Shown one piece after another: positions 22,573-50,844 of a stretch of 64,000 nucleotides of DNA. Below the pieces are notes generated by a model that saw nothing but the letters and a program-made list of their open reading frames with translations, had not been told where the DNA came from and did no database searches. The stretch covers positions 1 to 64,000 of the forward strand of contig NZ_LQXM01000020.1 in assembly GCF_001648555.1 (NCBI RefSeq), written 5' to 3'. Every line of letters starts with the position of its first letter. The stretch's first letter is position 1. The position numbers were made by a program, and so were the translations under genes. This DNA comes from Rossellomorea aquimaris TF-12. GTDB taxonomy: Bacteria; Bacillota; Bacilli; Bacillales; Bacillaceae_B.

Positions 22573-22860
22573 TAAAAAACCCCTCGTCCTTAGATATTCT
22601 ATTGAATATCTAAGGACGAGGGGTTAGCTCGTGGTACCACCTTAGTTTATAGCTTGCTCACACAAGACTATCTCGACAAGTACGGAGCGTGTGCTCGATA
22701 CCGTGACATTGATAACGGATGTACACCCCCGTTCTACCCTACACCACACTGGCTCGAATAGAATGCTCCGAGATCATTTTCCATAAAACTGTACCTTTGC
22801 TTCTTTTCAGCTACCGAAGCTCTCTGATAAAGGACTATTCTATGTACTCTTCTCATCAAT
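22573..22860 (-). promoter_or_regulatory. T-box riboswitch, methionine specifier
   Basis: Leader of metG. The antiterminator core AAGGTGGTACCACGAGC (22643-22627) is followed by a long perfect terminator stem (CCTTAGATATTC / GAATATCTAAGG) and a T-run ending at 22573. In Stem I, GAAAATGATCTC places an ATG specifier at 22777-22775, matching Met. Uncharged tRNA(Met) would stabilise the antiterminator and allow metG expression. Confidence 0.9.
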
Positions 22861-22876
22861 GCATGTTTATTTGTTT

Positions 22877-33877: not shown

Positions 33878-34156
33878 AAAAAAAGCCCCCTATGAATCAC
33901 ATGTTTTCTGTGTTCATAGAGGACGATCCTAACCGCGGTGCCACCTCAGATTGGGGTAAATGCATTACCCCCTCTTCTTCAAGTACGGGGTTTTAATAAC
34001 CCGATACTCTATCCTGATAACGGTGGAATTCCGTACAATCCTACTTCCATTCAGACTGTCTCTCATAAGTCCATTCCAGACAAGCTATCATGTTAAGGTC
34101 TCACCATCCTTAACTCTCTGTAATGCATCACTTGAATGTACTCCTCTTACTCAACG
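33878..34156 (-). promoter_or_regulatory. T-box riboswitch 2 of trp operon (proximal), tryptophan specifier
   Basis: The antiterminator core AGGTGGCACCGCGG (33945-33932) is followed by a terminator stem CCTCTATGAAC / GTTCATAGGGGG and seven T ending at 33878. In Stem I, GGAATGGACTTATGAG gives a TGG specifier at 34073-34071. It directly precedes trpE. Confidence 0.92.
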
Positions 34157-34193
34157 ATTTACTATTAAAATGTTAGCTGAAGAAATTTGAAAA

Positions 34194-34464
34194 TAAAAAA
34201 AGGCACCTCGATATCCTAAAAAAGGACGAGATACCCGTGGTGCCACCTTCGTTGACTGTAAAAACAGTCCACTTAATCGTATCGAAGCCAACAAAGCTTG
34301 AATACGTGTCTTTTGTAACGATAAGACATTCGCCAAAGCCTACTCTCTGGAAAAAAGATTTCGGTTTGGAAGCTCAGAAGTCCATTCCTTTAAACATTCA
34401 CACTAGTTCACACCAACCACTAGCTCTCTTAAGTGCCTGTTCAAAATACTCCTCTTCGTCAAAG
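34194..34464 (-). promoter_or_regulatory. T-box riboswitch 1 of trp operon (distal), tryptophan specifier
   Basis: A second complete T-box in the same orientation: core AAGGTGGCACCACGGG (34249-34234), terminator ending in seven T at about 34194, and GGAATGGACTTCTGAG in Stem I with TGG at 34384-34382. No ORF lies between the two T-boxes, so they act in series on one transcript. Confidence 0.92.
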
Positions 34465-34493
34465 CCATTCGCTCATTTAATTAATTGTTTATT

Positions 34494-37077: not shown

Positions 37078-37202
37078 TTACGCATCCCCTCCTTTCAAAC
37101 AGTTTTCTTTATACAATTTACGACAGAAAAAAGTGAAATGCAATAAACATTTGGATTTGGTCTAATCAAGTATCAGAATTATATCTAATCTATCTCTACA
37201 TC

Positions 37203-37308
37203 AAAAAACAACCCGAGACATATGGTCTCGAGTTGTTTTTGAAAGGGGGGTTCTCATGAATCATTCTTATTTAATTAAGAGGGGGAACTCTTTAGTCTAA
37301 TGAGAATG
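37203..37308 (-). ncRNA. FsrA-like iron-responsive small RNA candidate
   Basis: A promoter with a Fur box over its start point faces left into about 105 bases with no good ORF, ending at a strong terminator. The predicted RNA has two C-rich single-stranded stretches, TTCCCCCTCTT and AACCCCCCTTT, then a hairpin CAACTCGAGAC / GTCTCGGGTTG and six T. In B. subtilis, FsrA is a Fur-repressed sRNA of this size whose C-rich segments pair with ribosome binding sites of iron-using enzymes. Similarity in plan is strong; identity with FsrA is an inference. Confidence 0.7.
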
Positions 37309-37315
37309 ATTTTCA
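37301..37315. promoter_or_regulatory. Fur box
   Basis: TGAGAATGATTTTCA matches the 7-1-7 Fur box TGATAATNATTATCA at all but two positions (12 of 14 defined). It overlaps the -10 region and start of the sRNA promoter, so Fur-Fe would repress. Confidence 0.75.
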
Positions 37316-37342
37316 ATATCATTGTAATTCTAATCGTTTCAA
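37315..37342 (-). promoter_or_regulatory. Promoter of the sRNA candidate
   Basis: TTGAAA (37342-37337) and GATATT (37320-37315) spaced 16 bp on the minus strand; predicted start near 37308. Confidence 0.6.
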
Positions 37343-37364
37343 ATGTCAATCACCTTTACAATAA

Positions 37365-38102
37365 TCAAAGTGCATGTGTTGTATCACTTGTTCGATCAGT
37401 AAGTCTACTCCTTCTTCTCTCTAAATAAGTGAAAAAGAGAAAAGTAATGAAGAATACTAGCATGCCGGCTAATTCTAGATTCACTATATAGTAGATGCCT
37501 TCCCCAAACCATAATAAAGGTGTGTTTCCTTCAGGAGGTCCGCCTAGAAAAAAATAATTGGAACCTATCCACCAATTTAACAGATAAATTGGAATGGCCA
37601 ATATATTTAATAACACCATCCCATATACAATTGATTTCTTTGGAATCTTATAGTTATCAGAGAAAAACAAATACAATACCATAAAGGGAATTGCTGTGTG
37701 GTGAATAAAGTATTTAATGTATCTAAAGTGAGGAAAGCTATATGGGATATCTGGTGTGATGAGGGCGAGAATGGGGGGAATAAATCCAATATATAAAAAT
37801 AAGAAAAAAATCTTTTCACTTCGTTTATAAAACAGGTAAATCCCTAAGAATGTACTGATACTGCATAATTGAAGGGGCAGAGTAGATTGTACAGTCCAAA
37901 GACCATTCATTATTGACCAGGTTTGAAAGGTTAATTCAGAAATAAGTAATGTCCAAACAAGGATTATACCAATCTTTTTTATATATATTGAAGTTGAAAA
38001 CGTAGTAATAAACAGAACAATCATGATCGTAAATAAAAGAAGTGTCATGATATGTTCCATGGAAAATAACTGAAAGTCCATCATATCATCAGGTGAAAAC
38101 AT
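37365..38102 (-). CDS. TIGR02206/YwaF family membrane protein
   Basis: A 245-residue protein with about seven helices and the family pattern LPLQLCSIS in the middle, YIKYFIHHTAIP and a C-terminal basic tail. Function unknown in all members. AAGGAGAGG precedes the ATG. The 348-base gap upstream (38103-38450) holds only the terminator of the next gene and AT-rich sequence in which I see no gene. Confidence 0.85.
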   Translation of the reverse strand: MFSPDDMMDFQLFSMEHIMTLLLFTIMIVLFITTFSTSIYIKKIGIILVWTLLISELTFQTWSIMNGLWTVQSTLPLQLCSISTFLGIYLFYKRSEKIFFLFLYIGFIPPILALITPDIPYSFPHFRYIKYFIHHTAIPFMVLYLFFSDNYKIPKKSIVYGMVLLNILAIPIYLLNWWIGSNYFFLGGPPEGNTPLLWFGEGIYYIVNLELAGMLVFFITFLFFTYLERRRSRLTDRTSDTTHAL

Positions 38103-50400: not shown

Positions 50401-50487
50401 GAAGTTTGGCATGACTAAATAAAGCACTCATAGGTATAATTAAAAAATGAATCATTTCATACATTAAACCATTAGAATACTGCCGTT

Positions 50488-50624
50488 CCTTCTCCCATCC
50501 AGACTTTCACTGTCGGCTTTGGAGTTTCACCAAATCCACCGCCTAATATAGCATTAGCCGGGTCACGGACTAAGAGCCATTGCTCATCACCGCCGGTAGG
50601 GAATTTCACCCTGCCCCGAAGGAA
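50488..50624 (-). promoter_or_regulatory. FMN riboswitch (RFN element)
   Basis: The minus strand carries the RFN conserved blocks: CTTCGGGGCAGGGTG, AATTCCCTACCGGCGGTGAT, AGTCCGTGACCC, GGCGGTGGATTTGGTGAA and CCGACAGTGAAAGTCTGGAT. It sits 160 bases upstream of ribD and should repress the operon when FMN is high. Confidence 0.96.
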
Positions 50625-50844
50625 ACCTATTCGATTACCTCTGATTATCTATGTTAGAATACTTAACTGTCAAGTTTTCCACTTTATCATATCGGAGGTG
50701 TATTTTGGGGTTCTCATTCATTTGCACTATTCCATTAGAGTTTACTGATATAAATAGAGATAAAAATTGAGAGTGAGGACTGTTAATTATCATTCCATTT
50801 AACTGTTTGTACATTTTTGGAAGGAAATGTCTTAATTTAAGTTC

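Follow-up and report, generated by a model that had tools for sequence, protein, structure and literature searches.

Structure of the small-RNA locus

The stretch analysed (the window) comprised 64,000 nucleotides of Rossellomorea aquimaris TF-12 (contig NZ_LQXM01000020.1), and a compact small-RNA gene was found on its minus strand at about 37314-37203. The gene was found to carry a Fur operator at its start, two C-runs and an intrinsic terminator (Table 1). It is best read, with a probability of about 70%, as a member of a new family of Fur-controlled, C-rich iron-sparing RNAs that would act like FsrA and IsrR, blocking the translation of succinate dehydrogenase and aconitase via the C-runs. 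Its upstream neighbours are a YwaF/TMEM164-family gene, PAP2 and Ku, and its downstream neighbours are YhdT (DUF997) and a sodium:solute symporter.

The promoter TTGACA-17-TACAAT was found to match the consensus at 11 of 12 positions. An earlier note on this DNA had proposed a leftward promoter, TTGAAA-N16-GATATT, with a start near 37308. A leftward promoter is present, but the proposed one reaches only 9/12 and overlaps the better one, which lies 6-7 bases upstream; the start was therefore placed nearer 37314. The Fur box expected over the start was confirmed, as TGAAAATCATTCTCA (37315-37301) contained two mismatches against TGATAATNATTATCA and was the sole site of the window with at most two, and the strong terminator expected at the end was found as well. 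Both of the expected C-rich stretches were present, with CCCCC at 37285-37281 and CCCCCC at 37250-37245, and this pair at this spacing, which was picked post hoc, occurred once in the window and in 0/100 shuffles. The stretches had been called exposed, which holds only in part, since in the predicted fold a longer stem encloses a small hairpin, and most of C-run 1 sits in the loop of that hairpin.

Table 1. Features of the small-RNA gene, in window coordinates
Feature	Position	Strand	Basis or remark
-35 box TTGACA	37344..37349	-	promoter scoring; TTGAC retained in 33/36 genus loci
-10 box TACAAT, spacer 17	37321..37326	-	TACAAT in 24/36 genus loci, other hexamers at the same register in 12/36
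Fur operator TGATATTGAAAATCATTCTCA	37301..37321	-	spans the end of the -10 box to about the 14th transcribed base; exact in 35/36 genus loci
Small RNA, about 110 nt	37203..37314	-	start set 7 bases past the -10 box (predicted); model R1 matches 37200-37314
Main stem, 5′ arm (transcribed half of the operator)	37303..37311	-	predicted fold
Main stem, 3′ arm AGAATGATT	37259..37267	-	predicted fold
Inner hairpin with C-run 1, AAGAGUUCCCCCUCUU	37277..37292	-	complementary to the citB ribosome-binding site
C-run 2 with CAUGA, UUCAUGAGAACCCCCCUU	37243..37260	-	predicted partner: sdhC ribosome-binding site and start codon
Intrinsic terminator, 14-pair stem, six U	37203..37238	-	sequence and fold; two-sided covariation in 9/12 pairs

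Conservation within Rossellomorea

At the DNA level each of the 36 genus genomes gave a match, in some cases of only about 27 bases. The covariance model R1, built from 25 rows, likewise matched 36/36 Rossellomorea genomes, and the model R2 missed one genome (G039) that R1 detects. The C-rich segments, whose conservation in related genomes had been suggested as a check, were retained: at least one run of at least five C was found in 36/36 genus loci and two such runs in 30/36. CCCCCTCT was found in 35/36 loci and a TTCATGA-type motif ahead of C-run 2 in 27/36. A short variant with two C-runs was found in three genomes (L028-L030), and a variant with a single C-run in five genomes (L031-L035) and in L040. 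No clean terminator was found in L037 and L038 within the stretch examined.

When the window neighbours were compared by tblastn with 73 loci, yhdT-panF was found next to the RNA at 28 genus loci out of 36, whereas the other eight (L031-L035, L037, L038 and L040) lacked it there, so that the RNA is an independent gene. A YwaF-like match was found in 9/36 loci. The setting between yhdT and a YwaF-like gene, given in the earlier note, is therefore incidental. The 3′ end of ywaF was also rejected as the nature of the element; no terminator was found between ywaF and the promoter, but the YwaF-like match occurs in only those nine loci.

Three further observations concern single records. Locus L002 (NZ_CP089998.1, a 690-kb plasmid of 'Cytobacillus spongiae') was found to contain an RNA identical to that of L017 (G047), with yhdT-panF behind it, and this record may consist of Rossellomorea DNA or have a common origin with it. 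Locus L036 (G026) contained a Fur box, a CCCCCC loop and a terminator, with a partial Ku match at the locus edge; it is perhaps a distant form of the RNA and was kept outside the family count. Identical pattern matches recur, among the matches listed, on contigs C2, C14, C20 and others of the own assembly (G000), for which contamination is given as 9.56%, and this assembly may hold duplicated or foreign stretches.

Relatives outside the genus

The order-wide searches covered 397 genomes for each model and gave matches at E<=0.01 in 31 genomes for R1 and 45 for R2, the own genus included. Outside the genus, R1 matched 15 genomes, of which 14 were inspected, and R2 matched 30, of which 16 were inspected and 14 were not. 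Among those inspected, G061, G137, G111, G053 and G341 looked real for R1 and nine did not; for R2, G061, G137, G111, G072 and G053 looked real, and seven others were tandem Fur boxes, leaders or chance matches. Four other families thus contain convincing similar RNAs, in five genomes in all (G061, G137, G111, G072 and G053). All five loci retained the stem arm and a terminator, together with an operator-like start and four or five consecutive C, and the examined stretch of G137 was identical to that of the Bacillus coahuilensis locus L075. A DeoR-type gene downstream was common to the genus locus L037 and the outside loci L095 and L215, the outside genes having 59% and 54% identity with that of the genus locus, and this common neighbour favours descent over convergence.

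Four genomes of one genus (G103, G187, G237 and G341) were found to contain the stem and a C-run and were excluded from the family count, because a nitroreductase frame begins close behind in three of them and a ferritin-like gene follows in G341. In the former three (L210, L212 and L211 for G103, G187 and G237), a Fur-operator stem whose loop reads TTCCCCC[C]TC stands close ahead of the nitroreductase frame; from the sequence, these may be a leader on the same plan, or possibly a leader doubling as a C-rich regulator. In G341 (L104), the related stem and C-run lie between a Rieske-domain oxidoreductase gene and the ferritin-like gene.

Predicted secondary structure

The fold of 37314-37206 was found to have an energy of -32.2 kcal/mol (z -6.06), equalled by 0/200 shuffles, and the terminator contributed much of it. 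The predicted order is a stem of the operator half and its downstream copy, an inner hairpin holding C-run 1, then C-run 2, followed by the terminator. The terminator was the only helix with two-sided covariation. The main stem was paired in 97.9% of the alignment cells, and one-sided changes were seen in it, for example from U-A to U.G.

Predicted target sites

The genes citB, sdhC and leuC were chosen as targets since they are listed for FsrA in a table of PMC8464778. Leaders were taken from family searches, which gave sdhC in 15 of 16 genomes and the aconitase family in 15, one of which (L150) was without a start, leaving 14 citB leaders. For comparison, a script predicted 62 gene starts in the window.

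The citB leader of the own genome was found to contain TTAGAGGGGGAATCGAAATGG, and all 14 citB leaders contained 9-14 contiguous bases complementary to the RNA, all within a C-run. The sdhC leader of the own genome was TTAAGGGGGGTAAATCATGG, near-identical in all 15 leaders, and in the best cases (11 contiguous bases in G001 and G036) C-run 2 with CAUGA complements the sdhC Shine-Dalgarno sequence and AUG with one bulged base. In the own genome citB ranked first on C-run 1 (-20.6) and sdhC on C-run 2 (-24.4), with 0/62 window starts as good. When the folding of both partners was counted, the values became -14.5 for citB and -18.5 for sdhC against -14.4 for the best of the 62, so that citB is barely ahead.

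Cofolding placed the sdhC G-run on C-run 2 in 11/11 two-run genomes, on the single run in three of four single-run genomes and elsewhere in L040; citB was placed on the single run in 4/4 single-run genomes. Species-matched pairs of RNA and target were slightly better than swapped ones, as good a result being given by 110 (length) and 226 (energy) of 10000 permutations for citB and by 152 (length) and 38 (energy) for sdhC, counts that for both genes ignore shared descent.

Wider patterns at gene starts were also compared. The C-run 1 target pattern was found at 16 starts of the own genome and its reversed form at 15, which is no enrichment. In other genomes the counts were 12/12 (G042), 22/20 (G001), 38/28 (G003), 45/29 (G038), 41/19 (G012), 32/14 (G031) and 36/10 (G008). 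The C-run 2 pattern gave 34/15 in the own genome and 44/16, 42/19 and 29/14 in three others, though any Shine-Dalgarno-like pattern might give such counts. At the pattern sites of the own genome there were 31 reading frames of at least 50 amino acids, of which 20, a non-random choice, were scanned against Pfam. Three of these were iron- or respiration-related (a Fer4_20 oxidoreductase, L264; a homogentisate dioxygenase, L266; cytochrome oxidase subunit III, L290), 15 matched other families and two matched none; the three candidates are a lead and nothing beyond.

Proposed function and alternatives

The gene is probably turned on under iron shortage, to judge from its operator. With iron present, Fur on the operator over the start would shut off transcription, and with iron absent an RNA of about 110 nt would be produced. 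The transcribed half of the operator and its downstream copy would then form the stem, with C-run 1 in the inner hairpin, and C-run 2 with CAUGA would sit between the stem and the terminator. C-run 2 and CAUGA are predicted to bind the ribosome-binding site and AUG of sdhC, and the citB ribosome-binding site would be held either by C-run 1, which offers the longest complement, or by C-run 2, which is more open. Such pairing is predicted to halt the translation of succinate dehydrogenase and aconitase, saving iron. We infer in this way transcription, Fur control, pairing in the cell and the effect on the two enzymes. The RNA would be ordinary in kind and new as a family. No description of it was found among the literature matches listed for Rossellomorea small RNAs and Fur, FsrA, and iron-sparing C-rich RNAs, a coverage that leaves out most subscription papers.

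Sites with at most two mismatches to the Fur box numbered one in the 64 kb against 1.58 expected by chance, so that the box counts only because of its position at the start and the conservation of the 21-mer.

Several results weigh against the proposed function. Two-sided covariation was found in 0/10 pairs of the main stem, which is expected since the operator pins the 5′ arm. The longest sdhC match was 7-11 bases and lay outside any C-run in 7/15 genomes. Shuffled RNA bodies paired equally well with citB in 28/1000 cases and with sdhC in 2/1000. The C-runs have no sharp specificity, because sdhC beats all 62 window starts on C-run 1 too and citB, beaten by 2/62, is near the top on C-run 2; the unconstrained sdhC duplex of the own genome also uses C-run 1, and the C-runs fit many G-rich start sites of non-iron genes. 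The leuC leader was ordinary against the 62 window starts (13 and 9 of 62 as good) and was not supported as a target. In cofolding, citB was placed on C-run 2 in 8/10 two-run genomes, the own included, and on C-run 1 in 2/10, with energies from -2.4 to -25.9 kcal/mol that were weak in several genomes.

A strict division of labour, with citB served by C-run 1 and sdhC by C-run 2, is not supported by the cofolding; citB leaves C-run 1 there because opening the inner hairpin costs modelled energy. On these models sdhC on C-run 2 is the firmer prediction, the argument for citB on C-run 1 being its longer match. A more specific version holds that the Fur operator is transcribed and reused as an RNA stem and that the C-runs are separate modules against ribosome-binding sites, C-run 1 for citB and C-run 2 with CAUGA for the sdhC Shine-Dalgarno sequence and start codon, in an unlisted family of the Bacillales. 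This version was at first given an even chance, and it was lowered to a tentative one, somewhat short of even, because in the majority of two-run genomes citB cofolded with C-run 2 instead. If the operator does serve as the stem, a single sequence would act as DNA operator and RNA structure, and drift of the operator would harm the RNA and vice versa.

The sequence would also allow the stem arms to be two Fur half-sites, a further point against the proposed function, and the locus would then be a double Fur operator whose inverted halves mimic an RNA stem, the transcript being irrelevant. The 3′ arm GAGAATGATT has the sequence of a Fur half-site, some matches in the order are plainly tandem Fur boxes (e.g. 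L214 and L220) and the stem lacks two-sided covariation; yet at the 3′-arm position facing U, 17 of the 22 alignment A1 rows that have it carry G, which gives G.U in an RNA and a poorer Fur half-site, and the C-runs and the terminator are conserved as well, making a mere double operator very improbable. A Fur-controlled leader or attenuator for yhdT-panF would suit the shared strand and a terminator that ends about 125 bases ahead of yhdT in the window, but it was rejected on account of the eight of 36 genus loci with no yhdT or panF match beside the RNA and is hardly credible. A dual-function RNA that also codes a micro-peptide (MVHxxPP..) was suggested by an ATG in the 3′ arm with similar first codons (MVH[D/E]...) across much of the main clade. 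This ATG lies inside the stem and no ribosome-binding site was found for it, and the frame and its length follow the length of the C-run, being absent in the short variant and lost in the single-C variants, so that the peptide was rejected and is given next to no weight, in agreement with the earlier view that the RNA holds no convincing open reading frame.

Other elements in the window

Three T-box leaders were found in the window, a tandem pair at 33916-34163 and 34219-34471 on the minus strand (136 and 141.5 bits) and a third at 22609-22868. An FMN riboswitch was found at 50483-50627 on the minus strand (114.4 bits).

Comparison with known iron-sparing and C-rich RNAs

Pairing by the Gram-negative RNAs RyhB and PrrF is not known to be founded on C-runs. 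As described in PMC9410917, these RNAs are likewise Fur-repressed and iron-sparing and differ in being Hfq-dependent. RoxS/RsaE resemble the Rossellomorea RNA in binding targets by C-rich regions (PMC8216469, PMC8464778) and differ in being under ResD and Rex rather than Fur, with other confirmed targets (PMC8464778). In the account of PMC9410917, iron-sparing small RNAs apparently emerged more than once, with no sequence in common. To these the present family adds an RNA whose two targets were specified in advance and whose simple design lends itself to direct tests.

The earlier note had seen the plan of FsrA here. A C-rich RNA with a Fur box on such a plan was supported by genus-wide conservation and by complementarity to citB and sdhC; identity with FsrA was not supported, as the covariance model RF02273 gave no match, the Bacillus subtilis control being positive. 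RF02273 found nothing at E<=10 in 37150-37400 and nothing in the 31 genomes searched (the own and 30 relatives). It was over its cut-off in 7/299 genomes of the order, all in one genus, and matched 24/299 at E<=0.01; of the 17 weak matches, the five inspected (L049-L053) did not contain a Fur box with C-runs. The best sub-threshold Rfam match, AaHKsRNA41 (E 0.0037, 21.7 bits against a gathering score of 97), lay on the opposite strand over the terminator and was taken as chance, as was ncr1241 (15.2 bits).

The RNA could then be a diverged orthologue of B. subtilis FsrA beyond the reach of the narrow Rfam model, which leaves such regulators unseen in Rossellomorea. The two have in common a Fur box at the promoter (present here by sequence), C-rich regions with the same C-run logic, a terminator and, as predicted here, citB and sdhC as targets, FsrA being described as targeting citB, sdhCAB and leuCD (PMC8464778). 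An orthologue is nevertheless rated quite improbable, given that RF02273 is silent in the own genome and its relatives. The predicted folds and the placement of the Fur box also differ, the FsrA-type RNAs of seven loci having a short 5′ hairpin, then an unpaired C-rich stretch (GTTCCCCAACCCCTCT) and a terminator. The Fur box of the FsrA-type locus L042 stops 7 bases short of the modelled RNA, whereas the operator here enters the RNA and makes the stem, and this locus, the one checked for neighbours, adjoins a ykuI-like gene, unlike the Rossellomorea RNA. The FsrA target leuCD is not predicted for the Rossellomorea RNA.

Staphylococcal IsrR is described as an RNA of 174 nt whose second Fur box follows directly on the start and whose long first hairpin (H1) has a C-rich loop (PMC9410917), which holds CRR1; IsrR targets citB and is predicted to target sdhC (PMC9410917, PMC11257911). 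The Rossellomorea RNA shares with it the Fur box just past the start, the C-rich hairpin loop, the genus-wide conservation and citB as a target, which is predicted for the Rossellomorea RNA (PMC9410917, PMC11257911 for IsrR). Common descent with IsrR would account for these features and for sdhC, and it is considered unlikely, as IsrR, compared by description only, differs in its greater length, its three C-rich regions, its two Fur boxes and its other locus. Judged from that description, the layout of IsrR is closer to the Rossellomorea RNA than that of FsrA.
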